64,000 bases of DNA from Euphorbia lathyris (lineage: Eukaryota; Streptophyta; Magnoliopsida; Malpighiales; Euphorbiaceae): the NCBI RefSeq assembly GCF_963576675.1, contig NC_088919.1:50118501-50182500 (forward strand), given 5' to 3'. The translations under genes and the position numbers were made by a program. Positions 14,491 to 59,443 of the stretch are shown one piece after another (within the stretch, counting starts at the first letter, position 1; each line of letters opens with the position of its first letter). The notes beneath the pieces were generated by a model. It saw nothing but the letters and a program-made list of their open reading frames with translations. It searched no databases and had not been told where the DNA came from.

Positions 14491-17418
14491 TTACCATATG
14501 GGTTGCCACCTTTACGGGACATCCAACACCATATTGATCTAGTGCCGGGAGCTAGCTTGCCTAGTCTTCCTCACTACCAGATGAGTCCCAAGGAGAGTGA
14601 CGTGATGAAGGAGAAGGTGGAGGAGTTAATAAGAATGGGCTACGTTAGGGAGAGTATGAGTCCATTTGCGGTACCGGCTTTGTTGACACCCAAGAAAGAT
14701 GGGTCGTGGAGGATGTGTGTGGATAGTCGGGCCATCAACAAGATTACCATATGGTACAAGTTCCCGATTCCCCGACTTGATGATATGCTTGACCAATTGG
14801 GTGGGTCCAAGGTCTTTTCGAAGATTGACTTGAGAAGTGGATACCACCAAATTCGGATTAAGGCGGGAGATGAGTGGAAGACGACGTTTAAGAAGCGTGA
14901 TGGATTGTATGAGTGGCTAGTGATGCCATTCGGGATGACCAATGCACCGAGCACTTTCATGAGGTTAATGAACCAAGTCCTACGCCCGGTGATTGGGAAG
15001 TTTGTGGTGGTCTACTTCGACGATATTCTCATCTACAGCAAGACACTCGAAGAGCATGTAGAGCATTTGAGGGCCGTCTTAGTGTTACTTCGGGAGAACC
15101 AACTCTTTGCCAACACAAAGAAGTGTGATTTTGTGATGGAAAGCTTGGTGTTTCTCGGGTATGTGGTCAGTAGGGATGGTATCCGGGTGGATGAAGAGAA
15201 AGTTAGAGCTATTCGGGAGTGGCCGACTCCAAAGACCGTTGGGGACATTAGAAGCTTTCACGGGTTGGCTACCTTCTATAGACGGTTCATCCAGAATTTC
15301 AGCGCTATTGTGGCCCCTATGACCGAGTGCTTGAAGAAGGGAAGAGGCTTCAAGTGGGAAGACGAGCAAGAGAGTAGCTTTGCATTGATAAAGGAAAAGC
15401 TAAGCACCGCTCCGGTTTTAGCATTTCCAGATTTTGATAAGCTCTTTGAAGTTGAGTGTGACGCAAGTGGAGTAGGAGTTGGGGGAGTATTGATGCAAGA
15501 GAGGAGGCCCATTGCTTATTTCAGTGAGAAGTTGTGTGACTCGAGACAAAAATAGGCCACCTATGATAAGGAATTCTATGCGGTAGTGCGGGCTCTCAAG
15601 ACGTAGGAGCACTATCTCATTGGAAAGGAGTTCATGTTGTATACCGACCACCAAGCCCTCAAGTACTTGGGAAGTCAAAAGCAGCTCCGTAGTTCCATGC
15701 ATGCTAGATGGTCCACTTTTATGGATAAGTTCCCCTATAAGCTTCTCCACAAAGCGGGTCAACAAAACAAAGTAGCGGACGCTTTGAGCCGAAGGGTAGC
15801 ACTCCTCAAAACAGTCGCCTTGGAGTTAGTAGACTTTGAGCACATCAAGGGGGAGTACTTTGATGATCCGGACTTTGGGAGCGAGTGGGAGAAGTGTAGG
15901 AACGACGCCGAGGGAGGCGAATACCAGTTGGTGGATGGGTTCCTTATGAAGGGAAGTCAGTTGTGCCTTCCGAACACATCCATACGAGAACGGGTGATCC
16001 GAGAACTACATGGAGGGGTGTTAGGGGGCCACTTTGGTAGAGATAAGACCTTGGAGGCGGTTAGCTCTCGATACTTTTGGCCTAGGATGAGGAGAGATGT
16101 GGTGTATATCGTAGAGAGATGTGAGATTTGCCAAACCTCTAAGGGGCATACTACTAATGCCGGATTACGTATGCACTTACCGGTTCCGGAAACTATTTGG
16201 GAGGATCTTTCAATGGATTTTATGTTGGGGCTACCAAGGACTCAACGTGGTATGGATTCTATCTTTGTGGTGGTGGATAGGTTTTCGAAGATGGCTCATT
16301 TCATCCCGTGTCGGAAGACTAATGACGCCACCGCCACCGCCATTGCTAAGGTTTTCTTCCATGAGGTGGTGAGATTGCATGGGGTTCCAAAGAGCATAGT
16401 GTCGGATCGGGACACAAAGTTTGTTAGCCACTTTTGGCGAACTCTTTGGGCTATTCTCGGAACCACTCTGAAGTTTAGTACCACGGCTCACCCACAAACG
16501 GATGGGCAAACTGAAGCGGCAAATCAGACTTTGGAAAATCTATTAAGAAGCAAGTGTCGGGAGAAACCCAAGATGTGGGATTATGTTCTTGCCCAAGCCA
16601 AGTTTTCCTACAACTCTGTCGTGAGTTCAACCACCGGGAAGTCACCTTTCGAAGTTGTGTACACCAAAGCACCGAACCATTCGCTTGATTTGGGAGAGGT
16701 TCCGAAGGGGGAGAAGAAAAGCGTAGCGGCACACAATTTGGCCAATGACTACCATCAAATGCACCAAGAAGTTCGGCATAGCATTGAGGGGAATAATAGT
16801 AAGAACAAGGCCAAGGTTGATGAGCACCGGAGAGATGTACAGTTTGAGGTGGGGGATGAGGTGATGGTGTACTTGGGAAAGGAGCGACTCATGCATGCTA
16901 CTAATAGCAAATTGAGGCCGAGGAAGTATGGCCCCTATCGGATCACCAAGAAGATTAGTGCCAATGCCTACCAACTAACCCTTCCTAATTGGCTTGGGAA
17001 GATGTCTTCTTCTTTTAATGTGCAGGACCTTAGCTTGTGGAAACCGGAGGGAACATTGCCAACCAAGGCGTCGGAGGCGGAGTCCGACTCTTTCAAAGAA
17101 GGGGAGAATGATGAGGGCATCCCTTCCCTAAGCCCGAACCCGGAGCCCAGAGACGAGAACAACGAGAACCGGGGGAACCAGCCAAGCACGCGAGGCGTGC
17201 TCACCAAGACGCGGGGCGTAAAGGACTCCATTACCGAAGAATTGTCCAGGAGATCAATGATGCGGGGCGCCTCTCCAAGTGCGCGGGGCGTGAAACTAGA
17301 GTCCGAACTGAAGAGTTTCCAGGAGGCCGACTACGCGGGGCGTACCACCAGGGACGCCACGCATGAAGTCCATCAACAAGGATCACCAAGATCAGAGGCT
17401 CCAATACGCGGGGCGTGA
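14491..17418 (+). pseudogene. Element 3 pol (RT, RNase H, integrase), two stops
   Basis: Reading starts inside RT ([17 protein letters not shown]). RT motifs are [48 protein letters not shown] and the catalytic YFDDIL near 15010-15030. RNase H has [31 protein letters not shown] and KVADALSRR. TAG codons at 15553-15555 and 15604-15606 replace Trp, which element 4 retains. Integrase is complete: HHCC ([22 protein letters not shown]), then DDE in [15 protein letters not shown] and GQTEAANQ. After integrase the frame passes the polypurine tract (about 17094-17108) and continues into the 3' LTR to 17418. No chromodomain is seen. Confidence 0.9.
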
Positions 17419-17890
17419 CTCCAGGAACGCCACGCGTGAAGTGCTCCTCGAAGACTCTCCAATCTCAGTAGTTAAGTCACGTGGGGCGTACCAAGGTCCA
17501 CGCGGGGCGTGTCCTGCCAGAAGGATACTTCTCCTCCAAGTTCTTACCTTTGGGGGACAGATCCTGCTCTTGTGTAATTACTGTTTTTCCATCACCCCCT
17601 ATTTACTAGGTTGCCATTATTTCTTTCCCTTCCCATCTCACCCTTGTTCCTATGTTTTGCTAGAAACCCTATTCAAGGCTTTTAGTCTTTTCCTCTTATT
17701 TTGTTGCGGTAATATAAGCTCCTTTATTTGTAATGAAAGCCAACTTTTTATGAAATTTATCTCAAGCCTCCATTGGAGCTCAATGTTCATCTTTGTTTTG
17801 GGTTTATTCAACCTTCAAGTTTAGCTTGAAAAGATTGTATTCTTTGTGAGTTTACGATTAAAAACTCTCAGTCGATTTCACGCTACATCA
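17109..17890 (+). repeat. Element 3 3' LTR (782 bp)
   Basis: Begins TGATGAGGGCATCCC straight after the purine tract AAAGAAGGGGAGAA and ends CGCTACATCA. Exactly the same length as element 4's 5' LTR (43986-44767). U3 carries the phased palindrome array; a TATA-like aatataag lies at 17711-17718, where the solo LTR and element 4 have TATATAAG. Confidence 0.93.
17188..17510 (+). promoter_or_regulatory. Phased interrupted-palindrome array, ten sites (element 3 LTR)
   Basis: Ten 11-bp sites related to ACGCGGGGCGT (ACGC-GGG-GCGT) start at 17188, 17209, 17260, 17281, 17333, 17354, 17406, 17427, 17479 and 17500. Spacings alternate 21 and 51-52 bp, a 72-73 bp period. Several copies extend the stem, as in GCACGC-GAG-GCGTGC. 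DNA between sites is largely unrelated from unit to unit. The array lies about 200-520 bp upstream of the TATA-like site. The period is not a multiple of three, so the overlapping pol tail does not explain it. Confidence 0.9.
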
Positions 17891-19007: not shown

Positions 19008-19735
19008 TGATGAGGGCATCCCTCCTTCAGTTGCGGACCCGGAGCCGAGAGACGAGACTCGTAGAGAGCTAGCCGAGGAAGACGAAGGCAATGGCAACCA
19101 GTAGAGCACGCGGAGCGCACCTAGTAGGGGCGCGGGGCGTGAAGAGCCCAAAGTCGGAAGAACAGCCCAGTAGGTCATACACGCGCGGCGTGCCCTTCGA
19201 GGCACGGAGCATGGATCCAGCGTCCAAAAAGAGTCTTGTCCAGGAGGTCAAGTACGCGGGGCGTACTTCTGGGGACGCCGCGCGTGAGGATCCCAGCGAG
19301 AACCACCAAGTCCATGAGCACAACCACACAGGGTGTGCTGAGGGTTATGCGGAGCGTGCCAACGCTGGATAATACTTCTTCAGCAAGTTCTTCCTGCCAT
19401 AACCATGAAGGACCACTTATCAAATTACTATTTAGTCTCTCCTTTTATTTACTGAATTACTTTCATCACTTTTTATTCCTATTTTACCCTTAGAGTTTTA
19501 ACTATGCTTGTAACCCTAATGTGGGTTTTTAGACATTTCATCTTAGATTTGAGGGAGTATATAAGCTCCTCATTTTGTAATGTTTTCTAACTTTGATGAA
19601 TTAAGAACATATAGCCTCCATTGGAGCCAATGTTTCTTCCTTGTTGGGTTTATTCAACCTTCAAGTTTAGCTTGAAAAGTTTGTATTCTTTGTGAGTTTA
19701 AGATTAAAACTCTCAGTCGACTTTAATCTACATCA
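19008..19735 (+). repeat. Solo CRM-like LTR with target duplication ttata
   Basis: Starts TGATGAGGGCATCCC, ends CTACATCA, 728 bp, flanked by ttata at 19003-19007 and 19736-19740. No internal region, so it is the product of LTR-LTR recombination. It is clearly diverged from the LTRs of elements 3 and 4 in the first 350 bp but shares the U5 end. TATATAAG lies at 19558-19565. It interrupts what was a TATA box (ttataaataa) of older sequence. Confidence 0.94.
19108..19357 (+). promoter_or_regulatory. Phased interrupted-palindrome array, eight sites (solo LTR)
   Basis: Sites related to RCGCGGGGCGT start at 19108, 19130, 19181, 19202, 19254, 19275, 19326 and 19347. Spacings are 22, 51, 21, 52, 21, 51 and 21 bp. 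Sequence between sites differs from elements 3 and 4, while motif and spacing are kept. Several sites are weakened (for example acacagggtgt). Confidence 0.87.
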
Positions 19736-21552: not shown

Positions 21553-23059
21553 AGCGACACAAATTCTCCCCCTCCACTCTGCCCTATCCACTACCATATT
21601 TTTCTCAATCCCCAATAAACTCATATCACTCTCGATCACCCTCCTCTAAGTTTGCTTAGGTCTTCCGCTACCCCTCACCACTACATCCCTTTGCCACTCT
21701 TCAGTCCTCCTAACCGGCGCATCAAGCGCTCTTCGTTTTACGTGGCCAAACCACCTTAGTCGGTTTTCCCTCATTTTATTCTCAATAGATGTAACCCCTA
21801 CTTTTGTCCTAATTATTTCATTACTCACCCGATCCTTTCTCGTATGACAACACATCCATCTCAACATACGCATCTCCGCCACCGACATCTTATGGATGTG
21901 ACAGTGTTTAACTGTCCAACACTCCGTACCATATAACAGTGCGGGTCTGATTGCCGTGCGGTAGAATTTTCCCTTCAATCTATTAGGCATGCCGGGGTCA
22001 CAAAGGAAACCCGTAGCACTCTTCCACTTCGCCCAACCATATTTAATCCTATGAGCAACATCTCCATCTACTTCTCCATCTATTTGGATAATAGATCCTA
22101 AATACCGAACGCGATCTGATGCCTGAACCACTCTCCCATCTAGGATGATTGTCCCTGCCTCCCTACTCCTATCGCCGCTAAACTTACACTCCAAATATTC
22201 TGTCTTACTTCGGCTCAACTTAAAGCCTCTAGATTCTAAAGTTTGTCTCCATAGTTCCAACTTCCTCTCCACGCCTTCTTTCGTCTCATCAGCCAATACA
22301 ATATCATCTGCAAACAACATACACCATGGTATACCATCTTGAAGTGAACTCGTTAGTTCATCCATAACAATGGCAAAAAGAAATGGGCTTAGTTCAGAAC
22401 CTTGATGCACTCCAATCGTAATAGGGAACTCTTCACTCTTCCCAACACTGGTACGTACACTCGTGCATGCTCCCTCATACATGTCCTTTATGATGTCAAT
22501 ATATTTCCGCAAAATGTCTTTCCTTATTAAGGCCCACCAAAGTACTTCCCTTGGTACCTTATCATATGCCTTCTCCAAGTCAATGAAAACCATATGCAAG
22601 TCTTTCTTCTTATTTCGATAGTGCTCCATTAATTGTCTCATTAGATGGATGGCTTCCACAGTTGATCTTCCCGGCATAAAGTCAAACTGGTTTTCTGAGA
22701 TCTTCACCGTCCTCCTTAGCCTTTGTTCGATCACTCGCTCCCAAAGTTTCATAGTGTGACTCATTAATTTGATTCCTCGATAGTTGGCACAATCCTGGAC
22801 ATGGCCTTTGTTCTTATACAAAGGGATTAGGATACTTTTCCTCCATTCTGATGGCATCTTATTGTTTCTCCAAATTTTATTGAAGAACGTCGTCAACCAT
22901 TCAATTCCTCTCTCTCCCAAACATCTCCAAATCTCAATAGGGATGCCATCAGGTCCTACTGATTTCTTCAATCTCATCTTATTTAATGCCATTTTGACTT
23001 CACCCTTTTGAATTCTCCATATGCATTCACGATTTACCATATCGTGAGGGATACTTATA
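21553..23059 (-). pseudogene. RTE LINE reverse transcriptase half
   Basis: Continues the LINE frame from the element 4 insertion site (SIPHDMVNRECIW). RT motifs are KSVGPDGIPIEIW, ILIPLYKNKG, NYRGIKLMSHTMKLWE, FIDLEKAYDKVPR, GVHQGSELSPFLFAI and the catalytic FADDIV (near 22296-22322). A conserved tail follows with YGTECWTVK and RWFGHVKRR. TAG at 21646-21648 interrupts GRPKQT, where family members have Trp; the frame then runs on to a natural end at ADPT near 21553. The enzyme copies the LINE RNA at a nicked target site. Confidence 0.93.
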
Positions 23060-23568
23060 TGATGTAGCGTGAAATCGACTGAGAGTTTTAATCGTAAACT
23101 CACAAAGAATACAGTCTTTTCAAGCTAAACTTGAAGGTTTAATAAACCGAAAACAAGGATGAACCTTGAGCTCCAATGGAGGCTTGAGATAAATTTCATA
23201 AAAGTTAGGGTTTCATTACAAACAAATGAGCTTATATACTCCAAAAAAATAAGAGGGAAAAGACTAAAAGCCCTTGAATAGTGTTTCTATCAAAACATAG
23301 GAACAAGGGTGAGATGGGAAGGGAAAGAAATAATGGCAACCTAGTAAATAGGGGGTGATGGCAAAACAATAATTGCACAAGAGGAGGATCTGTCCCCCAA
23401 AGGTAAGAACTTGGAGGAGAAGTATCCTTCTGGCAGGACACGCCCCGCGTGGACCTTGGTACGCCCCGCGTGACTTAGCTACTGAGATTGGAGAGTCTTC
23501 GAGGAGCACTTCACGCATGGCGTTCCTGGAGTCACGCCCCGCGTATTGGAGCCTCTGATCTTGGCGAT
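23060..23568 (-). repeat. Element 4 3' LTR, left piece
   Basis: Plus strand starts tgatgtagcgtgaaatc, next to the LINE target duplication, and runs to gcgat (23564-23568), one copy of element 5's target duplication. TATATAAG on the minus strand is near 23226-23235. Four sites of the phased array remain here, including 23440 and 23461 (21 bp apart). Confidence 0.93.
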
Positions 23569-25783
23569 TGTTAGACAAGGTGCTGACGGCCTCGCCCGGG
23601 CGGACCGGGGGGTGGACACGTCATGGCGACGTAAGCGGTGATTGGCGCCGAAAGCAACCAATCGTGGAATCAAGCTGCTCGGCAGGACCGGAGCTCGGAG
23701 TATGGAAGAGTCGCTACCCACGAATGGGAAAATGAACACCGATCCCTTGCGGGAGACCGGTGAGGGTTCGGGAAACTTAGGTACGAGCCGAGAAGTCTAG
23801 CTCCTTTCCAGAGAAAGGCTACTAGGCACCCCGACATCACCCGGTTATGAACCACCGGCCTCCTACTCAGCGTGTTAGGCGATAACGGACTAATCGCATA
23901 TTTCTTTAAGTTTAAAATTCATTTGAAACCTTTTCTTTCTCGCTTTGAAAACCGTTTTGAGCATGTCATTAAAAGCCATTTTAGTAAAGAATCACCCATT
24001 TTACATAAATTAAAAATACATAGGAGAGAGAGGGGGAGAAGAAAGAATTGATTTATTCACAGTGTGATTTTATGCTTTAGACTATACACTAATTCTAAGC
24101 TAATCTCATTCCCCAAAAACGAGTTTATTTACATGATTCGTACTTTAATCGCTGTTGGAACGATTTAGGTACGTTTCATAACCCCGTTAATTTACATGAC
24201 ATCGACTCGAATCGATGTTGGAACGACTCGAGCGTTTGAAAACGTGAGATAAGAAGTTTTAACAAAAAAACGTGGTTAAGCATACAAGTCCATTTATTTT
24301 TGCACAAAATCAGTTAGACAAGAAAACGATTCAAAACTCTATTATTTACAAATAGAAAACGATTTTAATTACAAGGTTCGCTCAATCCGCCGTTGGAACG
24401 GATTTAAGGTTTCAACACGTGATATTTTGGAAATGGTTTAAAAATGACAAAAAACGTTATTTACACTTTAGGAATATCTAGAAAAGTTTTTAATTTAAAC
24501 AAACAACTTGAAATCTCTTTTTGTCTTTTATTTTCCCCTTTTCACTCAATTAGCCTTTACTTGAACATCATTACAATAATTAACAAATCAAGGCCAAATT
24601 TACCCAATCAAATATATTTAAATATATACATATATAGAAAAAAAAAATAGAAATACGTATATATACGTAGTTTTATCTAAAAATAAGGATATATCTATAG
24701 ATAAAAATGAGTAAGAAATACTATATGATATAATAAAGAAAATGAGAAAGAATACTAAATATAATACATTTTTTATTCTAGTTAAAGCTATGTAAAAATA
24801 ATAGGCAAAAGTCCCAAAATAAGAGAATATCATTTATCCCAAAATGGTTTCAACTAATAATAGCTAATATAACCCAAACAACCCAAAAACTATATATATA
24901 TATACATATATTACTTTATAACATTAAATCCAAACAAATTAAATTTCAACATGGAATAAATAGCTATATAATACATAATTAATAGTTATAGGACTTAAAA
25001 ATAATTTTTATAAACATATTACATAATTAAATACACATGTACACAAGTATAAATATCAAAAAGTTGAGAAAAGAGGGTTAAAAGGGTGATTTTCGGATTC
25101 CAGAAGATTACCGACGGAAAATCCGTCGGTAATCTGCTGTTAGTGACAGAAATGACAGAATATCAGAAACAGTCCCTATACTTTCCAGATTTATTCAAAT
25201 GCTTTAGATTAGATCTATTCTATCATTTTGGACCTCCGAACTACCAAAATAGGATCATAGTCTATAACGGAGACTCCTAAAACGACGTTTTATTTTTAAA
25301 CGTTATTTAGAAATATTTTCAAAACTTATAATTACAACGTTTTTTAATCCCGAACTACCTTTGAGTCGGATCACGGTTCATATTGGGATATTAAAACGAG
25401 GTTTTTTATTTCAAAAACAAAACCAAACGTTTGTTTAACACGAGACTAAAATTAAATAAATGCAGAATAATAAATAAAACGTGATAAATAAATAATTAAC
25501 TAAATAAATAAAACTTTAGAGTAAATAAATAAAATGAATAAATAAATAAAGGAAATAAATAAAACGAGTCTAGTCCTCGGATTATACCTCAAGATCGGTA
25601 TTGACAGCTGAAGTCGGTTGATTTCACGAATCGTGATTTTTCGGTGTTTTTGGTAAAATATTTAACTTTGAAAAATTTGGATTTTTTTAGGAAAAAAATG
25701 TTTTTCCCAAAAAATTCACTTTCTCTCTCTAAAAATTTCCTTAGAGTGAGAAGCTCTCCAAAAAGTCCTCACTCAAATGCATG

Positions 25784-25814
25784 GGGATCCGTGCCTTTTA
25801 TAGGCACGGATCCC
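25784..25814 (-). promoter_or_regulatory. TATA box forming the loop of a perfect 12-bp hairpin (3' LTR)
   Basis: Arms gggatccgtgcc (25784-25795) and ggcacggatccc (25803-25814) are perfect reverse complements. The seven-base loop reads TATAAAA on the coding (minus) strand. Transcription would start about 25-30 bp to the left. The right LTR keeps it unchanged at 39738-39768. Confidence 0.85.
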
Positions 25815-25822
25815 AAAAAAAA

Positions 25823-26010
25823 TTTGGGCGTAGCCCGATGGGTGTCGGGCTACGCCCAAAAATTTTGGGCCTACGCCCAAAATGGTTTGGCGAACGCCCA
25901 ACCAGTGTTGGGCGAACGCCCAACGTTGGTTGGGCGTTCGCCCAACAGACGTTGGGCGTTCGCCCAACGGATGTTGGGCGCACGCCCAACGTAGGTTGGG
26001 GGCGCGCGCC
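25823..26010 (-). repeat. Palindrome row upstream of TATA (element 5 3' LTR)
   Basis: Starts with a perfect 16-bp stem (25823-25838 with 25845-25860, loop tgggtg). Palindromes of type TTGGGCG-nn-CGCCCAA follow, centred near 25872, 25893, 25915, 25937, 25959 and 25981, that is every 21-22 bp. A more degenerate GC-rich tail extends to about 26090. Confidence 0.9.
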
Positions 26011-26225
26011 CCGCTGTCGCAGGGTGTGCGCCCCGCATGCGTCGGCTGCCGCTAGGCGCTCGTCCAACGCCGCTGAGCACCCGCGAGCCGTACACTTGAC
26101 GATCGCAACCCCTACAGATCCTCTCGTGATTTTTATTATTATTTTTGCTTTAAATTATCAGAACCAACCGCTTCAACCGTCTTGTTATGGGTTTTCGTCA
26201 CAGGTCCTCCGACTCGGTGTCTACA

Positions 26226-26260
26226 GTTGCCCCTACTTTCCTATTTTGACAGTGATGTGC
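26226..26260 (-). other. Polypurine tract of element 5
   Basis: Minus strand ...GGAAAGTAGGGGCAAC immediately before the 3' LTR start TGTAGAC, the expected position for plus-strand priming. Confidence 0.75.
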
Positions 26261-26399
26261 GTGTTTTGAAAACGTTTTTTGCTAACGCAACACATGCAAT
26301 GTAAATATATTAAAGTAAAATACACGTATAGAGTAGGAGGAAGAATACCTGATCTCCATGCCGCATGCTCCGGCCTTGTCTTCGATCTTTGCCTTGTCT

Positions 26400-27310
26400 G
26401 TCCCGTCAATAGCAACCCTGGTCCACGACCGCGGGTAAAATGGCTCAAAAGCAACCCTGGTCTCTAAATCGACCGCCGGCAAAATGGCTCAAAAGCAACC
26501 CTGGTCCATGACCGCGGGTAGAATGGCTCAAAAGCAAACCTGGTCCACGACCGCGGGTAAAATGGCTCAAAAGCGACCCTGGTCTCTAAATCGACCGCAG
26601 GCAAAATGGCTCAATAGCAACCCTGGTCCACGACCGTGGGTAAAATGGCTCAAAAGCAATCCTGGTCTCTAAATCGACCGCAGGCAAAATGGCTCAATAG
26701 CAACCCTGGTCCACGACCGCGGGTAAAATGGCTCAAAAGCAACCCTGGTCTCTAAATCGACCGCAGGCAAAATGGCTCAAAAGCAACCCTGTTCCACGAC
26801 CGCGAGTAAAATGGCTCAAAAGCAACCCTGGTCTCTAAATCGACCGCAGGCAAAATGGCTCAAAAGCAACCCTGGTCCATGACCGCGGGTAAAATGGCTC
26901 AAAAGCAACCATGGTCTCTAAATCGACCGCAGGCAAAATGGCTCAAAAGCAACCCTGGTCCACGACCGCTGGTAAAATGGCTCAAAAGCAACCCTGGTCT
27001 CTAAATCGACCGCAGGCAAAATGGCTCAAAAGCAACCCTGGTCCACGATCGCGGGTAAAATGGCTCAATAGCAACTCTGGTCAACGACCGTGGGTAAAAT
27101 GGATTAATAGCAACCTCGGTCATCGACCGTAGGTAAGATGGCTCAATAGCAACCTCGGTCATCGACCGTAGGTAAGATGGCTCTCTCTAGCAACCCTGGT
27201 TTCTAAATCGATCGTAGTTGAAATGGCTCTCTCTAGCGACCTTGGTCTCTAAATCGACCGCAGGTAAAATGGCTCTTTCTAGCGACCCTAGTCTCTAAAT
27301 CGACCGCAGG
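26400..27310 (-). repeat. Tandem repeat with alternating 39- and 44-bp units in element 5 3' region
   Basis: Units share aaaatggctcaaaagcaacc then alternate between ctggtccacgaccgcgggt (39 bp) and ctggtctctaaatcgaccgcaggc (44 bp), an 83-bp higher-order unit. Homogeneous from about 26415 to 27060, degenerate toward 27310. Its place between coding region and 3' LTR fits the hypervariable 3' region known from Ogre-type elements, a reported source of satellite DNA. Confidence 0.93.
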
Positions 27311-29470
27311 CGTGTAGTGATGCATATAGATGGGTGAATGTAGCCTAGTCTATGGATGCGTGTAAACCCCTATGTGTGTGTATGCAGGTGATAGTGCGTG
27401 TGTCTGAATGTATGTAAGTGTGGCATATGCGTTTTTCTTTATGCTGATGTATGGACATGTGTGTATGCAAACTATGTATGCGCAGATGAGCTGGTCGGAT
27501 GGATTCCCTTTTCATAGGCTTGAGGGTTTTGGTAGTTTTGGATCGAGAAACGATGTTTCAGTCCATCCCCAGGGTGTGCAAGGATGAGGGTGAGGATAAG
27601 TTTGAAACCAAGGGTTGTAAGGATGGGGATTTGGTTTTGATGAGCTTGTGTCAAAGGGGCTCTCGCCTTTAACCAGATATTGACGCATTCATTTTTTCCC
27701 TAATTTTGCTTAAGTCGCCCTTTTCGGGTTTTCGACTCAACGGGATCTCTCTGATATTCTCTATCTCTCCTTTTGCATGAACCGCCCCTAGGGGTTTTCA
27801 ATTCATCTTTTCTATATCTCACCGATTTTCTCTATCTCTCCTTTTGCTTGGATCGCCTCTTTTGAGGTTTTCAATCCAACTTTTGTTCAGTTTTTTTTTT
27901 ATTGTAAATGATACCGGATAGCACAGGGGGTTCATATCCACGGGCCACTTCTATGCTGAGCATTTGACGATGAGTTCATGCCTGGTGCCTTCGTTAATGG
28001 AGAAGCTTCCGGGGCGAGATGGACGGTGATCTGATTGCATGGTCGTGCCCCCGATTAAAGTTACCGTCTTGGTGTGGGTTAGAAGTTGATGCGAGCGCAT
28101 GCCCCTGCCAACTTGAGGTGAGATTTCACGTGCGCTCAAGCTAGGGATACTGCCGTTGGGAGTAGTTATGGAGGAGAGATGCTTCGGTCGAAGTTTGACT
28201 CTTGAGAGGACCATATAGGAGCGGAGGAACCAGACTTCATGGGGCATGAGAGAGAGGAATAGTCTCTTTTTTTAGTTTTTTTTCTAGATTTTGGATCGGT
28301 TTATGGGTGTGATTTTAGTTAAGATGGGGTGTCTATTGATGCGGGTGTTTTCATTGCAAATGCAACCGTCTAGCTTAAATAAAGCACTTGGCAAACATAA
28401 ATTGAATTGTTTACTGCTCAGTTCATTAACCACTGTCACCAAAGTATGCCCTTTCGGGTTTTCACATTTCAGTTATTTTAACGCTCTCCTTTTACCCCCC
28501 GGAATTTTCAAATAAGCGCCCTATGAGGTTTTCACTAATTGGGGTGTCCCTTATTGTTGCATAGGCCGTTCTTTGTGGATTTTCAACCTATCGGGATTTT
28601 CGTTCTTTTTTTTTTTTTAATTCTCATGAGAAAGATTCCTTGGGTTCCTTTAAGATTGACCGTAGTTCTAAACTTCGTCGCCGCCTTTGTCTTCATTCGA
28701 CTACACATTTGATCTTTCCTTGCTAAAGTGAGCTTTTCTCGTACATTAGATCACCCATTTGCTGGGCAATGTCAACCGCTCTTGTCCTCTTGACGCCCCT
28801 CGGCTAGTTACGTCTGCTTGATAATTTTCTCTTACTTCTGATTGGCTTGTCTTTGCCCCTGAGCCTTTTCAGCATTGCCTTTTTTTTTTACTTTGAGTCA
28901 TCATAGATCTGAACCTTTTCATTGATCCTGGAACATGGTCCTTTATCGTTGATAGGTTAGTTGCTCCCGTCTTGTTCTGAATGGTGCACTCATGCACTGG
29001 TGTCCCCTTTGGGGGGAGGAATTTTTGTCGATGCCTTAGTGCTAGCATGGTTCTGAGGGCTTGTTGCTTACCCCTTCTTTTCTTTTCTTTTTCTCTCTTT
29101 TGGACTTTGTTGATTGTCGCTCCGTCTTCTTTTTGGCAAAAGCCGGTGAGAACCCTTCATTTGATGGGTCTATGCCCGACTTATCATCGTAGAGCCAAGG
29201 AATCGCTTCTCATGATTTGTATTTTTTTTTTACTCTCTTAGTTTTCTCTCTTCAGTGGTTAAGTACTGAGCAACAAGTATATTCTAGAACTTATGTCCGT
29301 GCCATGATAGAAGCGGGAATATCTCAATTGAGTAGATATCAAATGTAAGTACGTATGTTTAGGATAAATTTGCGGAAATGAAATTTCATTGAATTCAAAA
29401 GGAGGTTAACAACATCTTGTGGAATAGAAGATAAAATAAAAGACAAGGATAAAGACTACAAGTGCAATCC
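27311..29470 (-). other. Element 5 3' non-coding region with dispersed GCCC...GGGTTTTC motif
   Basis: No gene recognised. Between about 27710 and 28600 a motif such as cgcccttttcgggttttc recurs at least six times (near 27716, 27782, 27846, 28446, 28518, 28562), with a small CCC/GGG stem followed by TTTTC. It may be the remains of an older tandem array. Confidence 0.55.
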
Positions 29471-29479
29471 TCTCTCTCA

Positions 29480-30300
29480 TGCTACTTCAGGAAGCTTCAG
29501 ATTCTTCCACTTCATAAGTGTCCTCAATCTCGAGAACTTCTTCTTTAGCTTATCCTGATCCGTTGTAGACTTCACCGTTCAAGGAACCAGTCGAAGGCTT
29601 CATCTGTTGAGAAGGATCTGGATCACTTATCTTTCCAGCTTCGATGAGATCTTGGATTTCATGCTTCAACCTCATGCAAGTACTTGTTTCGTGACCATAT
29701 TTCTGGTGGAAGTGGCAGTAGCCCCTGCGTTTGGCTAACTCAGTGGTTTGACCTCCCGTGGTTGGTAGAGGATGAAGTATGTCATGCATTCGTAGACCCT
29801 CCAACACTTCAAATAAGGGTTGAGTGAAAGTGGAGAATTCCCTTCCCTCCCTTCTATACTGAGTGGGCGATGGAGGGCGAACAACCCTGGTAATCTCATG
29901 TCCCCGATGGTGTGGATCTTGTTGTGTTCGTGAAACATGGTGTGAGACTACCCTTGGTGGAGTGAATGTTTGTGGATTAGCTTGTGACGCGAGCTGGAAT
30001 ATAGGTTTCTCCACAGCAGCTTTCGGGATCTCCGCAACCAGTGACTCGCTCAGGACCTCCCTGACCAACCTTTTCAGCTCTATCTTGAATTCATCTGAAG
30101 CAAGGATATCGGGAAGAACTTGCTCGATTTCTGCTCTGAGATTGAATCTCCTATCATCTCTTGGGAATTTTCAACCCCCTCATGCTTAGTAGCCTCCGGA
30201 TCATTAAGAGCACGTTTGAACTCATCAGAAAAGATGTATTTAGCTAAATCCCCTTGCACACGGCTCTCAAGATTGTGGTTTGAATTGCTGGACTAGGCCA
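29480..30300 (-). pseudogene. Element 5 gag-like gene (Tat/Ogre type)
   Basis: Probable start ATG at 30300, followed two codons later by TAG, then NLESRVQGDLAKYIFSDEFK. A frameshift near 30130 leads into the open frame 30068-29550. The key feature is YCHFHQKYGHETSTCMRLK followed by HEIQDLIEAGKI, matching the CxxHxxxGHxTxxC-LK-LI-G signature of Tat/Ogre gag. The TAA near 29550 is followed in phase by an acidic tail (EEVLEIEDTYEVEESEAS). About 270 codons, shorter than a full Ogre gag; the capsid core is not obvious. Probable RNA-binding part of a gag protein. Confidence 0.72.
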
Positions 30301-30639
30301 TGAGTTGGGTTTCTAATAAGGAAAGAGAAAGGATCGGTGAGTGGAGCATTTTAGGCATTATGAATTTTGATGATGCGATGCACGTGTGATGTGAATGCCA
30401 GAGCTATCTACTTGTGCCTCCTATCGCTGGATGTATGATTTATGCATGATTCGTGGTGTGTGCTTTATTTCTTACAACATAAACACGATTTGACTAGACC
30501 TATACCTCTTTTTACCAGAGCTGTCGGCAGCGCTTCGATCGTCTGTGCTAACTTACCTGTTTGGAAGTGCGGATGCCCGAAACCATTTCAACTATTGTAC
30601 ACACATTAGTATGAACCCTACGAGTTTACTATGCAATGC

Positions 30640-33600
30640 TTTACAAGATGTACAATGTTGAATGATGCTCGACATGACTGACGCTTGTGAGATTGAGACG
30701 ACCCTCATGATAAGTAAAATTCCCTAGGACGCTAGGTAGATGAGAGTGTACCCCGATGATATCCGTGACGTGTAGATACATTGGAGGGGTAGCGACATGA
30801 GTGGGGGGAAATGACATACTTGGTACATCGACACAACTCACGATCCATAACCAACAACATAAGCGACTATGCATGAGGTGTATGTGAGGGATTGTCATCC
30901 TCGGTAGCAATGGCGTACTTCGAAGATACGCGGTATTACATGGGATGATGTGACGCTCATGGTATGTCTTTGATAACGCGAGACTCGAATAGACCATGAT
31001 GAAGACATGTGAGGTACGTGTCGAGGGTTTACTTAGTATCGACACTAATAGCAGGGAACCGCATTTTTGGGAAACACGAGCTTCCTGAAATAGGTCGACA
31101 CGGAGGGTGCACCACATGCGGGGTGTGGGTCAATGGTGAGTTTAAATCCAAGATACAAATACATAGATGTACCAACGGAACCTTGGCGTGCTATGTAGAA
31201 AGTGGTAACACACGGGGTGTGCCCTAAACAGGTTAAGGCATAAGGAAGACACGAGTGACATACGTGATGTGCGCCAATTGTCAGCTTCTCTCGGAAAGCA
31301 ACTATTACAATGATGGGTATTATTTAACGGGACAATGAACACGGAATACACGATACTCGAGGTCCGAATAGGATGCATATGTCGACATACGAGGTATGTG
31401 CTAATTATTAACTCCTACTTGGCTCACTAGTATCATGACAGCGTGGTTTGAAACATGGTGCATTTAGGAAGTACGATGACGTACATGGTATGCCTTAGAG
31501 GTAGCCAAACGGCATGATGGGAGTCACACTTGATGTGCCCGCACGATTGACTTATACGCAACTCACGAACGATGTGATGGTTTGATTTTGGGATTTCGAC
31601 CATCGCGGGGGAAATCCGACATATTGGGTACGAGACACGAATAAGATACACATACGACACGCGTATTATCTGACCAACTTTGGACATAGATGAAGCATAG
31701 GGATGACTCAAGAGGTACCTCCTAACAACATTGGAGGTGTCAGCTAGACACGACATCGACACGCAGGCTGCAGTTTAAGGATTAACTCAAGCTAGAGACA
31801 CAAATACCTCGATGTATTCGCGGATATTGGTGCGTCTGGTAGAATGAGGGGTGTCCTAATCTGATCGAGGTACCAACGAGACGGAAACGACGACTTACCT
31901 GGTATGTGTCAAAGGTCAATTCGTTTCATAGCGCAAATCCGACGATAATATGTTTTATGAGAACCCCTAAAGATCTTACGTGGATACCTATGACATACTT
32001 GGTCCATCACCGATATTTGAGATACCAGCAATGACACACAGGGTAGACATCGATAGTTCAACTGGAACCTATCACTATAAACAATTCGAGGAGCAACGAA
32101 GGCGTAAACCAAGATCTTCGAGGTAAGCGCCAAATGTTGGACTTAGACGCGGTACGAACAACTCGATACTACTGATACGAACGAGACCCAAATAGTGACA
32201 CATATGGCATATGTCTCAGGCTCGTGAATAAGGCAATTCGGAGTTTGGGGGCGCATGGACAATGGTACCAATGATGTAGGGGGAGCGTGTCGAGGATTTG
32301 ACAATATAAACCAATCGCTGTTTGAGGCGTACTCAAGACATGAGTGACGATTTACGGGGCGTATGTCAAGAGTTTGATAGGAGCCTCATGACATGAACGA
32401 CTCAGTGTGTCAAGGTATGAGTGGGATGCTCGAGACGGCCCATAGGGTACGTGCCTAAGGGTATGACTTGGACTCGACGACATGAATCACTCTATATGAC
32501 AGGTACGTGCCAAAAGTTCAACTCGAACTTGACGATACAAATGACTCGACATTGGAGATGTAAACGAGATGCACGTGATGACATATATGAACTTGCCCCA
32601 GATTCGACTTAAACTCAATGACATGAATGACTCGACATTTGACCCGCGAACAGGACATACCAAACCATGTATGGGGGTGTGCGCCACAAACTTAACCCTG
32701 ACTGGATGGTATAAACGACTCAGTCTTTGAATGTGAGTAAGGTGCGAGGGATGACACACGGAACGTGCGTCAAAGGTCGGTCCAGAATTGGATAGCCTAA
32801 TGACATATTCGTGGACTACAAATATTACCGATGATAAGGCGACATGTGGGGCAAGCTTTGACAAGGCCCAACGTATGACTAAAGCGCAAGCGGTGACATA
32901 CGTGATATGTACCGAAAGCTGATACGTGTTCGAAGCACTAGTGTCACATGTTTGGAATACTGACGTGTTACGATATACGATGACACACCTGGTACGTCTC
33001 ATATCGATTTGGCTATTTTGAAGATGCGACGGGGTGTCTCAAGAAGACCAAGGATGCGCGGGTTACCCTAGTACAATGACATGTCGACATACAAGGTACG
33101 ACCGAGGGTACCAATGGGGTGTGACAATGACCTACTAGCTAAGAGGTTAGTCAAATGACGCATAGATTCATTAGATGTGACGAGGCGACATATAAGGCGC
33201 CAGTTAAAGCGCGGACGTGACGCCATGACTTCGTGTGAAGCGTGTGTCAGAGGGTCAATGTGAACCTGGGGTCCGGACAGTGGGATGATGTAAATACGAG
33301 GGGGCACTATGACGACCCTCGTGGCGCACCTAAAGGTACAAATAGGAAGCGTGGACAACACACCAGTCAAGGGTTCATTTCGAAGCTCAGGGTATTGCCC
33401 ATAATTCTGAAATACGGAGGTGCTACATATGGACTACCTCCCAGATGCGAATGACGACAGGTAAGCGAGATTCGTGGGAAACAGTTAACTTGGCCCTTAG
33501 GTACCGATCGTATAACAACGTAACTTTGGAGTATAGGTGTATGGTGCGCCGACATGCGTGGCATGTCTTAGCGTACGAAGGTCATGATGACAACTTACGA

Positions 33601-35480
33601 GATGAGAGGTACAGATAATATAACGACGTAATTTGGAATCACATGGGCATGGCGACATATGTGGGTATGTTTTGAGATACAAAAGGGGGGTGACGACGAC
33701 CCGGGAGATTATGGTTCCATTCGAGTCCAAGGTACCGGTCGTAATCTTGAGATATGTTGACTAAGGCGTAGCGACATACATGGTATGTCTTGAGGCATAA
33801 GTAGGACGTGTATGAGACATGTGACGAATGGTTAATTCGAATCTCGGGGGAACTGATGCTGTGACAATGTTTCTTATTTTTTTTTGGAACTATCAATATG
33901 TTGTCAGCGACGTGGCGACACACATAGTATGTCTCGAGTCGACCGTGCGGAAAGTGAATGGAATTTGCCCCACGATGCGAATGTTATGACAAACGAGGTA
34001 TGACCACCAAGAAGTTTGGATCTGGCAAGGACGCATATCCAACGAACAATATTCCTAATCATGATAGAGGGAGGCAGAGTACGTCGTGACACATGGGACA
34101 TGTCTCCGGATAACTTAAACACGGTGGTAAAGACGCATGTGATATGTCACGATGCACATGGTATACCCCCTAATGGTATAAACAGGACGATAAAGATGTG
34201 CGCGGCGTATCCCACACCAAGCATAACACGACGAAGACATAGGGAATACCTCAAGGTCTAAAGGTGCTCCTCCGGAATTATATATGAGACACATCATAAC
34301 ACGCGGGGTAGACCTTTTGACGGGCATGCGAGACATGGTGAAGACGCGCGAGATACATTGTGATATATGGGGCATGTCTTCCGTTAGGCACCCAGCAAGG
34401 CGAGAACTCAAGTCATGATATACGGGGTATGGCTCTATTCTAGCGTATATGATACGGAAGACGCATATGCGACCTATCGCGATGTACGACCTTGACAATA
34501 CTCTGACATAGGCGATGCATGGCGGCGCATCGAGTACACGTCTTAACTAGCGTATAGCTGACGTGATGGAGACGCATGGGACACTTCACGATATGGAAGG
34601 TGGGACGAGGCAAGGACGTATGGGATGCATCCCGGCTCAAATCGTATGCCTTTCGTCTAACGTATATAACATGGTGAACAAGCACCTGATATGCCATGAC
34701 ATACGGGGCGTGCAACTCCTGCCCCTCGCTTGGCGCAAGGAATGAGGCGAAGATGTACAGGATGCGTTAGGACACACATAGTACACCTTCTGACCGGTGC
34801 GTAATGACATGGTAGAGACACAAGGAATGGGTCATAATATACGAGGCACAACAGGGAAAAGACATATGGGATAAGTCACGACATAACAGGTATGCCTATT
34901 GATCGGTGTCTGAATGATTAATGGAAGATGCATAGGGTGCGTTACGTCTCATGGAGTATGACAAAGTAAAGATGCAAGGAATACATCACCACATGACAGG
35001 TGGGACTCATGACGGGTGGACACGTGATGACACGACGCAGCAAGGATATAGCGGATACGTCACCAGGGAACAGTACGCCTCTTGACAGGGTAAGGACATA
35101 TTGGAGGTGCCGCAACATACGGGGTACGCCAAAACAAAGGCGTAGGGGATACGCAATGACATAAGGGTTGTACCTTCTGACTAGTGCCTATGATACTAGG
35201 GAAATTACGAGGTACGCTACCATATGTACAGTATGCTAAGGCGAAGATGCATAGGATACGTCACGACATAATGGACATGCCTCCTCGCTAGCATACAAAC
35301 AACACTGTGAAGACGCCCGAGATGTGCCAAGGACGTATAGGATGCGTCCCAACACACATGCATGACAAGGCAAAGACGTATGGGATACGTCACGACATAA
35401 CTGGTATGCCTCCCGATGAACACGCGACGCTGGGGTCGACTCTTTCTCACATTCCTAACAAACACGTCCTAAGTCTACAA
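30640..35480 (-). repeat. Degenerate 5-kb palindrome array in element 5 leader
   Basis: Dispersed, strongly diverged units contain GACATAC-nn(n)-GTATGTC, an interrupted inverted repeat. Clear copies are at about 31383, 32890, 33551, 33652, 33770, 33915, 34086, 34350, 34870 and 35390. In the right half a longer unit recurs (gaagacgcatgggatacgtcacgacata-type, in sections) at roughly 100-bp intervals. Frames of 70-170 codons occur but have repeat-driven composition. The array lies between primer site and gag. Confidence 0.75.
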
Positions 35481-37514
35481 AACCTAGAATGGCTGCACGC
35501 AGTTCGGTTAGCATGCGACACTCTATATGGTATGACTGTAATGATTTGTTAAGCATAGGACGCATTATGACTTAAATCTGACTCGACTGATGTACAAACA
35601 GATAGAAATCCATACGAACAAACTAGTTAGCAAAAATCGTACATAACGCGTAATTAGATTGCAATGAGAAAACGTTAGATAACAATCACAATCATCACAT
35701 CATCTCTCTTCCATCCTTATTCCTCCACACACTCGTTGGTCCAAGTCTCTTTCCTAGGATTTTGGTATGGGCTCACATCGTGGTCCAGAGAACGCGTGAT
35801 GCCGTCGATTATTGCGAAAAAAGGTAAATCATCCATCAGACAATACAGTTCGTTTTGACGTATCAACGTTCAGTGACTAAGATATCGACCAAATGGATTG
35901 TCCTTTCGTATAACTCGTCTTTTGTTATTTCACGAGACGCATTGGTTCGGGTTTTGATTCCCTTTTGAGCGTATCTCAGATTTAGACGTGGTACGAGTTA
36001 TTCTTTTCAGTTCAATCGTTCGTTATTGACAATGACTCGTTCCCTTTTATTCGCGTGGGTTCGTGTCTCGATTTTTGGATTACAACGGGATCTTTTTGGG
36101 TCTATCGAGAGACGCAACCATGTGTTTGTTTAGTGAGAATATCACATTTTGATTTTTGTTTGGGAACGGACTCATCGCGTAACGTGTTTGTTTTTAGCGT
36201 CAAGAATCTGTTTGCTCGTTTTGGCTACGTGAGAAGACGGTGAGTCTTATTTGAGCGCACGGTAATCTTTTGGCTAGCAACAAATTTTTATTTCTTCCAA
36301 TTTACGGGATATATCATCCTAGCGTGGTTATAGGAAATCAACGTTTCGTTTAATCGCATGCTTATTCGAAGCAGGGATATTACCGTTCTTTTTCATTTAG
36401 GCACGAGTTAAGCAAACACACATGTCGGGCCATATTTCTTGCAGTTTTGGTAACAGTCGAAATGATCGAGCCATTAGTCAAACCCACAGTCTCGTCCATA
36501 TGGTGCAATCACGCGGTTTCTTAGCTTAATTCGGCTTCGTGATTTTTAAGCGGTGTATATACCAGTTCGAGGCACGTATTTAACGACATTGGTTCATTTT
36601 CTTTAACTACTCTCGGGATTGACATATATCGTAGATACAGAATGATTTTGGTCGTTTGATTATTTTTGCTTTTCTTTTATTTTCTTAGTCACTTTCGCGA
36701 ATACGTCCATTTCTCCTTAGAACAACACAAGGTATAACGTAAGAGCTCATTTTTTATTCGGAAGGGACGGGCCAAGTTCATGAAACTCTTTACGTTACAA
36801 CGGGGTCGTTCAAAACAGAAATGTTCTTCGTTTTCGTTTTGTCATAATCTCGTTTTATCCCAACCTATTAAAGAATGTGAATAACGGTTACTGTTAATAT
36901 AGTCTTTTGAATCGAGCTATAACTATCCTTAATACCAAACCGATTTGTACTAATACGTGCTTACGCCACAATGTATTTCCTGAACATGTGCCTTCTTCGG
37001 GACACGGAAAGGGACCAGGCGGGTCGCACAAGTTCATTCATACGAGATGACTAAGTCGTCTTTAGTTCGAAATGTTTCGATGTTTTGGGGTAGTTTGTAT
37101 ATCGGTTTAAGAGTATATATTAACGTATCGCTTCATTTTCTTTACACATTTTAGGATTAGACACGTATCATGGCAATTTAAAAACACGAACTGATTCATT
37201 TATCACATCAAAAATGGTAACGGGTAATCCTATGGCAACTTCTAAGGCTACTATATGCTGACACGACTGATCGCGGGACCTCATAGGACCGCACAAATTT
37301 GCCCCTAACGAATGGATGGGGACCCTTTGGCGCCTTACTGTAAGGGGGAACTTACACTAGCCTCTTTCGAGCGACGAATGGACTCTCGCTAGAGGTTTCG
37401 CGGAAATTACCCAAAATGTTTGCAATAATGCTTATGAATGCATACGAAAAGAAATAATACGATCCGTCCCCGTTAAGGGCTTAATACACGCCTTCCGGAA
37501 TCAAATTTCTCGCT
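35481..37514 (-). other. Element 5 leader next to primer site, nothing recognised
   Basis: About 2 kb with no convincing frame, repeat or structure beyond the scattered gtacgag/cgttt pattern. Belongs to the untranslated leader of element 5 by position. Confidence 0.6.
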
Positions 37515-37532
37515 TCCCCAGCAGAGTCGCCA
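37515..37532 (-). other. Primer binding site of element 5 (Tat/Ogre type)
   Basis: Minus strand TGGCGACTCTGCTGGGGA, two bases from the LTR. TGGCGACTC-type sites, probably tRNA-Arg, are characteristic of Tat/Ogre elements. Confidence 0.85.
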
Positions 37533-37534
37533 CT

Positions 37535-40243: not shown

Positions 40244-40397
40244 GCGATCCTTGTTGATGGACTTCACACGTGGCGTCCTCGGTGGTACGCCCCGTGTCTT
40301 GGTGAGCACGCCTCACGTGCTTGGCTGGTTGCCCCGGTTCTCGTTGTTCTCGTCTCTTGGCTCCGGGTTCGGGCTTAGGGAAGGGATGCCCTCATCA
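40244..40397 (-). repeat. Element 4 3' LTR, right piece with 124-bp deletion
   Basis: Starts with the second gcgat copy (40244-40248) and ends ctcatca at 40397, the first bases of the LTR on the minus strand. The two pieces add up to 658 bp, 124 less than the 782-bp 5' LTR. The missing DNA corresponds to 44533-44656: tacgccccgcgt joins directly to cttggtgagcac, so the deletion lies between two identical palindrome sites. Confidence 0.9.
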
Positions 40398-43985: not shown

Positions 43986-44767
43986 TGATGTAGCGTGAAA
44001 TCGACTAAGAGTTTTAATCGTAAACTCACAAAGAATACAATCTTTTCAAGCTAAACTTGAAGGTTGAATAAACCCAAAACAAGGATGAACCTTGAGCTCC
44101 AATGGAAGCTTGAGATAAATTTCATAAAAGTTAGGGTTTCATTACAAACAAATGAGCTTATATACTCCAACAAAATAAGAGGGAAAAGACTAAAAGCCCT
44201 TAAATAGGGTTTCTAGCAAAACATAGGAACAAGGGTGAGATGGGAAGGGAAAGAAATAATGGCAACCTAGTAAATAGGGGGTGATGGCAAAAGAGTAATT
44301 ACACCAGAGCAGGACCTGTCCCCCAAAGGTAAGAACTTGGAGGAGAAGTATCCTTTTGGCAGGACACGCCCCGCGTGGACCTTGGTACGCCCCGCGTGAC
44401 TTAGCTACTGAGATTGGAGAGTCTTCGAGGAGCACTTCACGTGTGGCGTTCCTGGAGTCACGCTCCGCGTATTGGAGCCTCTGATCTTGGTGATCCTTGT
44501 TGATGGACTTCACGTGTGGCGTCCCTGGTGGTACGCCCCGCGTAGTCAGCCTCTTGGACACTCTTCACTTCGGACTCTAGTTTCACGCCCTGCGCACTTG
44601 GAGAGACGCCGCGCGTCATTGATCTCCTGGACAATTCTTCGGCAATGGAGTCCTTTACGCCCCGCGTCTTGGTGAGCACGCCTCGCGTGCTTGGCTGGTT
44701 GCCCCGGTTCTCGTTGTTCTCGTCTCTTGGCTCCGGGTTCGGGCTTAGGGAAGGGATGCCCTCATCA
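43986..44767 (-). repeat. Element 4 5' LTR (782 bp)
   Basis: Complete LTR, minus strand TGATGAGGGC to CGCTACATCA, bounded by the primer site on the left and the LINE target duplication on the right. TATATAAG lies on the minus strand at 44157-44164. Confidence 0.95.
44366..44688 (-). promoter_or_regulatory. Phased interrupted-palindrome array, ten sites (element 4 5' LTR)
   Basis: Plus-strand sites related to ACGCCCCGCGT start at 44366, 44387, 44439, 44460, 44512, 44533, 44585, 44606, 44657 and 44678. Spacings are 21, 52, 21, 52, 21, 52, 21, 51 and 21 bp. The array lies about 200-520 bp upstream of the TATA box. Confidence 0.93.
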
Positions 44768-57335: not shown

Positions 57336-59443
57336 TGTCACACCCGACCCTAAACGACCTCAATCGAATCGGGCGTGAAATAGAAAGATCATAATCAATC
57401 CTTAAAAGTCTCCAATTTATGCAAATATCATTATATTACAATTGCAATACCAAAGTTCTAACCATAACTCTAACAATAAGCAACAACTTCCGATCCTTGC
57501 CTAATCGGTCGGTAACCTTCTCTCTATCATGTACCTTCTCACCTAAAAACATTAAAACATTTAAAAATGTGAGACAAAAATCTCAGTAAGAAACTATCAG
57601 CTATAAAAACCAACTTTATTTAATATAGCTACATATATACATTTATAAAGGGATTTAATCAAAACTTTATAAAATATACTCAAAACATAAGTTTATAAGA
57701 TAGTCATCAAAACCTTATAAAATATACTCAAAACTTAAGTTAATAATATAGTCCAAGTAGTAAACCAAAAACATATAAAATATATAATATTGTATCCATC
57801 CTCGAATTCCACCCGTGTAGATCATAACATCAATCATAACAATATCGAGATATCTCATTTATATCCCGTTCCTTGCCTAACAGTTAGGACTACCAGCCGT
57901 GCACTCTGGCCATATCGCCATTAGATATGGTCTTACAAATACAACTCCTACCCCGGGCAATCCTAGATGGACAAAACCATTTAATCTTTCGAAATATCAC
58001 AACTCATAAAAATCATATTTGGACTTCAATCCAAAATAATAACAACAATAACCGCAACAGATTTCTCAATCCAAAAACAATTCTTAAGAAATCATCAATT
58101 GAAACCCAAAACATATATGTATATATGTAAATCAACCAAATGAAGCCTTAAATCAACATAATCAAGTAAAATCTGAAATTCACATAGAAACATAGTCAAT
58201 AGCTTCATTTGAACCATAATTTCACAATAAAAAGCAAAATCGTGAAAAATCCTAATTTACAAAATACCCGTATAATCCTTAAATATTAATTTCTGAAAAT
58301 TCTTTGATTATAAATATATCTATATACATAAAACTCAAAATATAGTTGATAGTTACTTACCTTGGTCACTAATTGAAGAAAACACACCCGTTCAATTCGC
58401 CTCTAAATTCTGTCTAAGACATTTCCCTCCAATCATTGCCGAAACTCAAAAACTCTTTGGTTAGGACTTAGATCTATGCATAAGGATGCTATGGTTCCAA
58501 TTTCGAGTGATTCGGACGATCGAATCTCCATAAATCAAAGAAACGGTGGAGAAACGGTTCAGAAAAAACTGATTAATTTCAAATGAATTGAAAAAGAAAA
58601 AAAAGAAGATGATGATCGTATCTCACCGCCTGAAATTTGAGATATATATCTCAAATTTGGCAAACATCACATTTGATCCTCCATCTTTCTATAATCTTTT
58701 AAAATTATTCTAAACCTTTAATTTAGATATAAACTCATCAAATTAACTCCAAACTTTTCCTATTTTCGCTTTCTTAAGCACATATATATTAACTTCAAAA
58801 CTCATCATATCATTTCAAAGTCTCCTAACCTTACTTCACATCTGAGATACATATGTTTTTAAGCTAACTATTAAACTCTCAAATATCAATTCCAAGTCAT
58901 ACTAAGGAGAAAAATCAAACAAAAACCAAATTCTGGTTTAAAGCTAAAATGACCAACGTATGTCGTTTCCAGCATAACTTTTTCATACGGAGTCCGCTTA
59001 AGGCGATTCAAAAACTCTTGGAAACGTAAGATAATACTAAAGAACTTTCATTTAGGACTCCATGACAGATTCGGCCTATATCTGGTCTAAAAATGCATCA
59101 CAAGATTCAGGTATGAATCTGATTTTCTAGCAGCACCTATATAAACAAGTCTCTATATCTCTAGCTCAACGTTATGACTTACTCATAACCCATATCACCA
59201 AATATCAAATAATTTACTATTTTTTATACACCTAGATATTGCTAACCATCAAATCTCATGTTTACACCTCATTAGCTAGTTACTAAATCCTCGAAAAATT
59301 CCAAATTATTTCTTAACTTTCATCAAATATTCATATTCCTCAATGATTATCGATTATTTCTTAGCTATCACCAAATATCGATATTCCTCAATTACTATCC
59401 ACTTTAGGTCCGAAGAATTTAACCTAGAGCTCTGATACCAAAC
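57336..59443 (-). repeat. Element 6 unit 2
   Basis: 2108 bp, differing from unit 1 by scattered substitutions and small indels (for example in the a/g-rich run near 58600). The palindrome at 58633-58658 is perfect. Confidence 0.9.
59429..59440 (-). other. Primer binding site, initiator tRNA-Met type (element 6, second)
   Basis: Minus strand TGGTATCAGAGC, three bases from the third LTR copy at 59444. Confidence 0.9.

Follow-up and report, generated by a model that had tools for sequence, protein, structure and literature searches.

The window, a 64,000-nucleotide stretch of Euphorbia lathyris DNA, contains LTR copies A, B and E and two parts, D and C, of a further LTR, and an array of ten ACGC-N3-GCGT sites lies in the U3 of copy A (Table 1). 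The LTRs of A, B and E start with TGATGAGGG and finish with CTACATCA, and TGGTATCAGAGC, which we take to be the complement of initiator tRNA-Met, is found immediately 3′ of the 5′ LTR E, in the position of a primer-binding site. The solo LTR B has TTATA on either side as a 5-bp target duplication (one copy checked). In the ORFs leading into copy A, RVT_1 lies ahead of the integrase domains, which is the Ty3/gypsy order; Integrase_H2C2 and SH3_Tf2-1 scored above the Pfam cut-off, and the rve core slightly under it. By LTR ends, primer-binding site, 5-bp duplication and RT-integrase order, the window elements appear to fit the description of the CRM clade. The available portion of that description (PMC3059260) likewise has TGATG/CATCA termini, a tRNA-Met type primer-binding site, a 5-bp target duplication and coding into the 3′ LTR, but it describes no palindrome array such as the one present here.

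Table 1. Features of the window, with positions counted from its first letter
Feature	Position	Strand	Context or basis
ORF with reverse transcriptase and RNase H domains	14503..15555	+	upstream of integrase ORF
ORF with integrase domains	15634..17418	+	C-terminal tail through sites 1-6, stop at site 7
LTR copy A, 3′ LTR, TGATG...CATCA, family A	17109..17890	+	boundaries and genomic copies
Array, ten ACGC-N3-GCGT sites	17188..17510	+	U3 of CRM-like LTR copy A
Array site starts	17188, 17209, 17260, 17281, 17333, 17354, 17406, 17427, 17479, 17500	+	
TATA-like sequence taatataagc	17710..17719	+	by eye
LTR copy B, solo LTR, 8 sites, 5-bp duplication TTATA	19008..19735	+	
LTR part C, remainder of 3′ LTR begun by part D	23060..23563	-	
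LTR part D, first part of 3′ LTR of copy E's element	40244..40397	-	
LTR copy E, 5′ LTR, ten sites, spacing as in A	43986..44767	-	

Parts D and C are split by a nested LTR element with the target duplication ATCGC; in part D, 124 bp are missing between sites 2 and 5, the break falling inside the site word. The nested element (23564-40243) has LTRs of the form TGTAGACACC...TAACA that are 97% alike over 2.4 kb, and within it, at 26426-27310, 8.8 tandem copies of an 83-bp unit are followed by a 46-bp unit. Beside part C lies a 485-aa ORF (21646-23103) that resembles a LINE-type reverse transcriptase by eye. Further along, a direct repeat of about 3.5 kb (55219-60881), 98.6% identical, overlaps itself at an offset of about 2.1 kb and is a 2.1-kb tandem unit.

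The ten sites of the array follow one another at start-to-start spacings of 21, 51, 21, 52, 21, 52, 21, 52 and 21 bp, with sites 6 and 8 scored on the minus strand, and the array starts about 520 bp and ends about 200 bp upstream of the TATA-like sequence near 17710. The initial annotation, made from the letters of the window, had described ten sites with this 21/51-52 alternation 200-520 bp upstream of a TATA box, and all of them were found where it had placed them. When up to two mismatches were allowed, the window gave 49 site matches against 4.28 expected, a number reached by 0 of 100 dinucleotide shuffles. Copy B carries spacings of 22, 51, 21, 52, 21, 51 and 21 bp, of which the 22-bp step was absent from the 20 other B copies fetched. 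In the 264 kb around the window, distances between sites with at most one mismatch peaked at 73, 21, 94, 146 and 52 bp. These results confirm that the spaced sites are real and more extensive than had been reported.

Site spacing in the genome and across LTR families

The E. lathyris genome (1.02 Gb) was searched for the exact word ACGCGGGGCGT, which occurs 41,448 times (20,359 + 21,089), against 158 (87 + 71) for the reversed-word control. Same-strand exact pairs numbered 7,023 at 16-46 bp, 8,926 at 47-77 bp and 9,017 at 78-108 bp, with 0/1, 0/0 and 0/0 control pairs in these ranges, while the off-phase counts, which cover 23-29 and 54-61 bp genome-wide, came to 7 and 16 pairs, respectively. 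The matches listed, 100 per search, all lie on one contig (C1), the same-strand lists spanning 0.1-8.9 Mb; since the copies are related, they are not independent events, and independent spacings are far fewer than the counts. Of 300 listed pair distances (16-108 bp), 294 lay no more than 1/8 turn from a whole number of turns at 10.45 bp, the exceptions being 70 (twice), 80, 90, 92 and 106 bp. Between 110 and 480 bp, the 100 single sites listed gave 139 same-strand distances, whose best period was 10.42-10.43 bp, with a phase of 0.002 turn and R of 0.86, and this estimate is sharp because the distances span up to 44 turns. Among the matches listed, no whole-turn step in the range of 11 to 26 turns was left empty. 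The 94 listed exact pairs at 21 bp enclosed 61 different 10-bp spacers. Moreover, pairs with the second word turned (one of the two inverted arrangements) numbered 854, and 45 of the 50 listed stood at 21 bp, which would follow if the site works as a dyad.

The same phasing was seen when LTRs were compared. Among 89 LTRs from four family groups (28 A, 20 B, 20 F and 21 F2, including two A and one F2 from the window region itself), 560 of the 576 consecutive intervals of 12-80 bp fell in whole-turn classes (20-22, 30-32, 41-43, 51-53 and 72-74 bp), which make up 22% of that range. A scan of periods from 8 to 14 bp over pair distances of 12-110 bp was best at 10.4 bp for A, B and F and at 10.2 bp for F2; at 10.45 bp, the phase was -0.03 turn, and -0.09 for F2. 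Sites thus stand at nearly integral multiples of 10.4 bp from one another, even where the second word is turned, and pair distances peak at 21, 52 and 73 bp, which bears out the same-face phasing put forward for the window array. These periods come from motif scans, used in place of a motif-free palindrome scan whose demand for perfect 5-bp arms was too stringent for A, with its 4-bp arms, and whose best periods were unreliable (A 12.5 with 17 pairs, B 8.0 with 16, F 10.6 with 21, F2 10.7 with 3). A scan of viral contigs for the site pair returned 47 stretches; four sites in a row occurred only in L013 (21, 33, 21), which we took as chance in GC-rich DNA.

Arrays of this kind span several LTR families rather than the one CRM-like family to which they had been assigned, and a short inverted repeat, ACGC-N3-GCGT or more generally ACNC-N3-GNGT, recurs in their U3. 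In family B, 16 of the 20 copies fetched elsewhere keep 21, 51, 21, 52, 21, 52 and 21 bp (counted where sites are present, with weak extra matches ignored). B elements look short, since the 40 B places listed include nine pairs at a distance of 2.7-3.1 kb. Family F has two arrays in the 264 kb around the window, with sites (T/C)ACGC-TCC/CCC-GCGTA, and outside the sites its alignment with A is confined to some 60 bp close to the LTR end. F2 is a diverse group with the half-site CAC(T/A)C-N3-G(A/T)GTG, whose commonest site has T-T at positions -3/+3 (52/92), and its spacings are 21 (29 cases), 51 (18), 31 (10) and 20 bp (7), plus seven others. We considered whether F2 sites were a wholly different motif and rejected this, as ACNC-N3-GNGT is common to both. 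An exact search for a pair of the F2-type word gave one match genome-wide (start-to-start 20 bp) and is uninformative because the word is too degenerate. A further group, G (L156, L159-L164), appeared among ten arrays picked from the genome-wide list; it resembles A, B and F only within the array, and five of its seven arrays contain 83-84-bp (8-turn) gaps. One member, L160, includes part of another LTR, the insertion target of G.

Some features of these elements were seen in passing. The ORFs of an F and an F2 element (L084:53-3626, L080:4700-6600) are without evident RT or integrase by eye, and the ORF before the 3′ LTR has a WVDxxxRDIPFDVG-like motif repeated several times, also by eye. In L150 (about 120-290), part of an F2 array is duplicated in inverted form within one LTR.

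Conservation of the half-sites and overlap with the integrase frame

Between families, the sites stay above background while the DNA between them diverges to near chance. In MAFFT alignments of A with B, half-sites were 82% alike (54/66) and spacers 54% (85/156), while the LTR outside the array was 69% alike downstream and 72% upstream. In the comparison anchored on the lattice (23 A and 16 B copies), identities of arms, centre and spacers were 0.83, 0.66 and 0.55, and they were 0.85, 0.21 and 0.33 for A against F and 0.64, 0.26 and 0.28 for A against F2; as the site lists come from motif scans, arm identity is favoured in these figures, most of all for A against F. The expectation that sites are better conserved than the DNA between them was thus borne out between families, but it did not hold within family A alone, where arms (0.894) were less conserved than spacers (0.928). 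Over 31 A rows, two of them repeats, transitions were more frequent in arms than in spacers (0.052 vs 0.032) and transversions less so (0.0065 vs 0.0166), a pattern that fits CpG decay after insertion masking constraint on active copies. Gap openings per 100 bp were much lower in the array than downstream only in B (array 0.13, downstream 1.40, upstream 0.17; 12 full-length B LTRs); in A (0.35/0.40), F (0.94/1.38) and F2 (1.34/1.99) the array value was at most modestly below the downstream one.

The claim that the array is not protein coding was too strong, given that the integrase ORF passes through sites 1-6 before its stop. An integrase frame without a stop for 95-110 codons is found in 13 of 28 copies of family A (the 28 include A and E of the window) and likewise in 8 of the 17 readable copies among the 20 B copies fetched, and in a 14th A copy it reads on to 191 codons; in the window, copy B has a stop just ahead of the array. 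In copies selected for an open frame, dN/dS over the integrase tail was 0.65-0.76, which leaves room for weak coding constraint. A protein search with the tail gave a single match, P0001, an annotated E. lathyris fusion protein in which retrotransposon pol and LTR sequence is joined to a permease-like domain (PF00860), and which is probably a gene-model artefact or chimera.

It is conceivable that selection acts on this tail and that the DNA repeats arise as a by-product, as the open frame through sites 1-6 in A and B copies and the dN/dS value would allow, together with a figure legend in the accessible part of PMC3059260, in which CRM group A coding enters the 3′ LTR. We regard this as highly improbable. 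The site word is translated in three frames of the overlapping ORF (TRGV, YAGRT/DATRE and IRGA), so that conservation attaches to the DNA word and not to a single peptide; sites 8-10 lie past the stop; the dN/dS value comes from open-frame copies only; and a minority of arrays are free of stops over their whole length in some frame (A 8/28, B 7/20, F 2/20, and F2 9/20, whose arrays of only 150 bp are shorter). The single F internal region listed was likewise without an evident RT or integrase ORF by eye. Given the three frames, the word beyond the stop and the mostly closed F arrays, constraint at the DNA level is the simpler reading.

A candidate U3 platform and its alternatives

On the strength of these sequence comparisons, we think it somewhat probable that the array serves as a regulatory platform in the U3, where a dimeric host factor would bind along one face of the helix. 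Each site would be bound by a dimeric, sequence-specific host nuclear protein; whole-turn spacing would place all dimers on one face of unwrapped B-DNA, where they would touch one another; and the complex so formed, lying 200-520 bp ahead of the TATA box, may raise (or gate) transcription of the element. Recombination or template switching at the sites might add whole units to a family or take them away, with the phase kept. A cooperatively bound protein had already been named as a natural explanation; the spacing and the arm conservation agree with it, and binding itself is what we infer from them. Taken as a whole, the interpretation in the initial annotation is partly supported. More tentatively, and with less than even confidence, we suggest that one host protein, or a few paralogues with shifted half-site taste, forms a one-sided array of tens of turns on the U3 of many unrelated families, the lattice being a conserved code that families have converged on or traded.

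The lattice could also have a mechanical origin, as an old tandem repeat whose units recombined at the sites, so that the spacing is inherited and not selected. DNA between sites had been called unrelated and recent tandem duplication denied. The first statement holds for most unit pairs but fails for units 3 and 4: across the long spacer of copy E, 19 of 30 positions match (2000 letter shuffles, printed p 0.000). Unit 4 was duplicated from unit 3 and is the relic of a 73-bp tandem event, so tandem duplication did contribute to the array. Family A, moreover, has the units of B plus one of 73 bp, the F array matches itself at the unit offset (83%), and part D lost its 124 bp exactly between two sites. 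The gain of a unit and the loss in D point to recombination or template switching at sites, which changes the number of units and leaves the phase intact. Steps of 31, 42, 63, 84 and 105 bp do not arise from it alone, and the mechanical account leaves unexplained these new whole-turn spacings, the whole-turn phase with the word turned, the scarcity of off-phase pairs and the arms that outlive the spacers. We hold this account to be unlikely.

Rotational positioning of nucleosomes, possibly CENH3 nucleosomes, would use GC-rich words at whole turns to set rotation, and 73 bp is half of 146 bp. The pitch of nucleosomal DNA is about 10.2 bp, and F2 taken alone would fit; its distances are better fitted by 10.2 than by 10.4 bp, which counts against the platform. 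The 10.43-bp pitch, on the other hand, fits unwrapped DNA better, and an exact 11-letter word common across families exceeds what rotation needs, so we consider positioning quite improbable. At least as doubtful, and in our opinion very improbable, is a role of the palindromes as RNA hairpins or small-RNA templates, as argued for maize Sireviruses, whose palindromic clusters attract small RNAs according to the available text of PMC10760457, citing another paper. The RNA fold of the window array was no better than that of shuffles on either strand (z 0.21 and -0.67), the commonest F2 site, with its T-T pair, would be mismatched in RNA, and spacing by helical turns is not needed by RNA.

As a special case of the platform, the bound protein could be a CAMTA factor with its CG-1 domain, and the elements would then be calcium- or stress-responsive. 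The accessible part of PMC10417383 gives the CAMTA core as (A/C/G)CGCG(T/C/G) or (A/C)CGTGT and mentions dimerization through the TIG domain. The link to this core, offered as a guess in the initial annotation, agrees with A, B, F and G, where 477 of 649 sites carry the core, but poorly with F2, where only 19 of 87 do and CACTCGCCGAGTG-like sites lack it; the scarcity of the core in F2 argues against CAMTA as a general answer. The core, moreover, does not need a second half-site. We therefore rate CAMTA as a rather unlikely candidate for the protein that would occupy the platform.

Among repeated motifs in plant LTRs, Tnt1-type boxes are short, repeated, partly palindromic activator boxes of the U3 in two or three tandem copies, against 7-14 here, and we know of no helical lattice among them. 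Such Tnt1-type cis-boxes are mentioned in the available portion of PMC2829016, which describes palindromic repeated motifs (RM boxes) upstream of the TATA box in Sireviruses; as far as that text goes, these are the closest known system. As here, many palindromic copies cluster in the U3 upstream of the TATA box, the core varies between elements and is CpG-rich, and a regulatory function was inferred with no common binding factor identified. Sireviruses are Ty1/copia elements, however, whereas the window elements have the Ty3/gypsy order (RT before integrase); the Sirevirus core is CGG-CCG, instead of ACGC-N3-GCGT or, in F2, CAC(T/A)C-N3-G(A/T)GTG; and no whole-turn lattice is described for the RM boxes in that portion of the paper. 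A search of titles and abstracts in the open-access literature, with most subscription papers outside it, found no phased LTR palindromes, and the Sirevirus work was nearest. Set against the Sirevirus motifs as described there, a whole-turn lattice of such depth, extending across several families, would be new. ACGCGGGGCGT is also printed within a lettuce FISH oligonucleotide (in the part of PMC11598091 available), and we draw no link from this.

Whether and how strictly spacing matters in the grammar of enhancers is a long-standing question. Here, one word is present tens of thousands of times in a single genome, and a DNA pitch of 10.43 bp can be read from its spacing out to 44 turns; many natural variants in number, order, orientation and half-site offer a direct test of same-face cooperative binding. 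The array is, moreover, a handle for finding a plant protein on which several retrotransposon families may depend.
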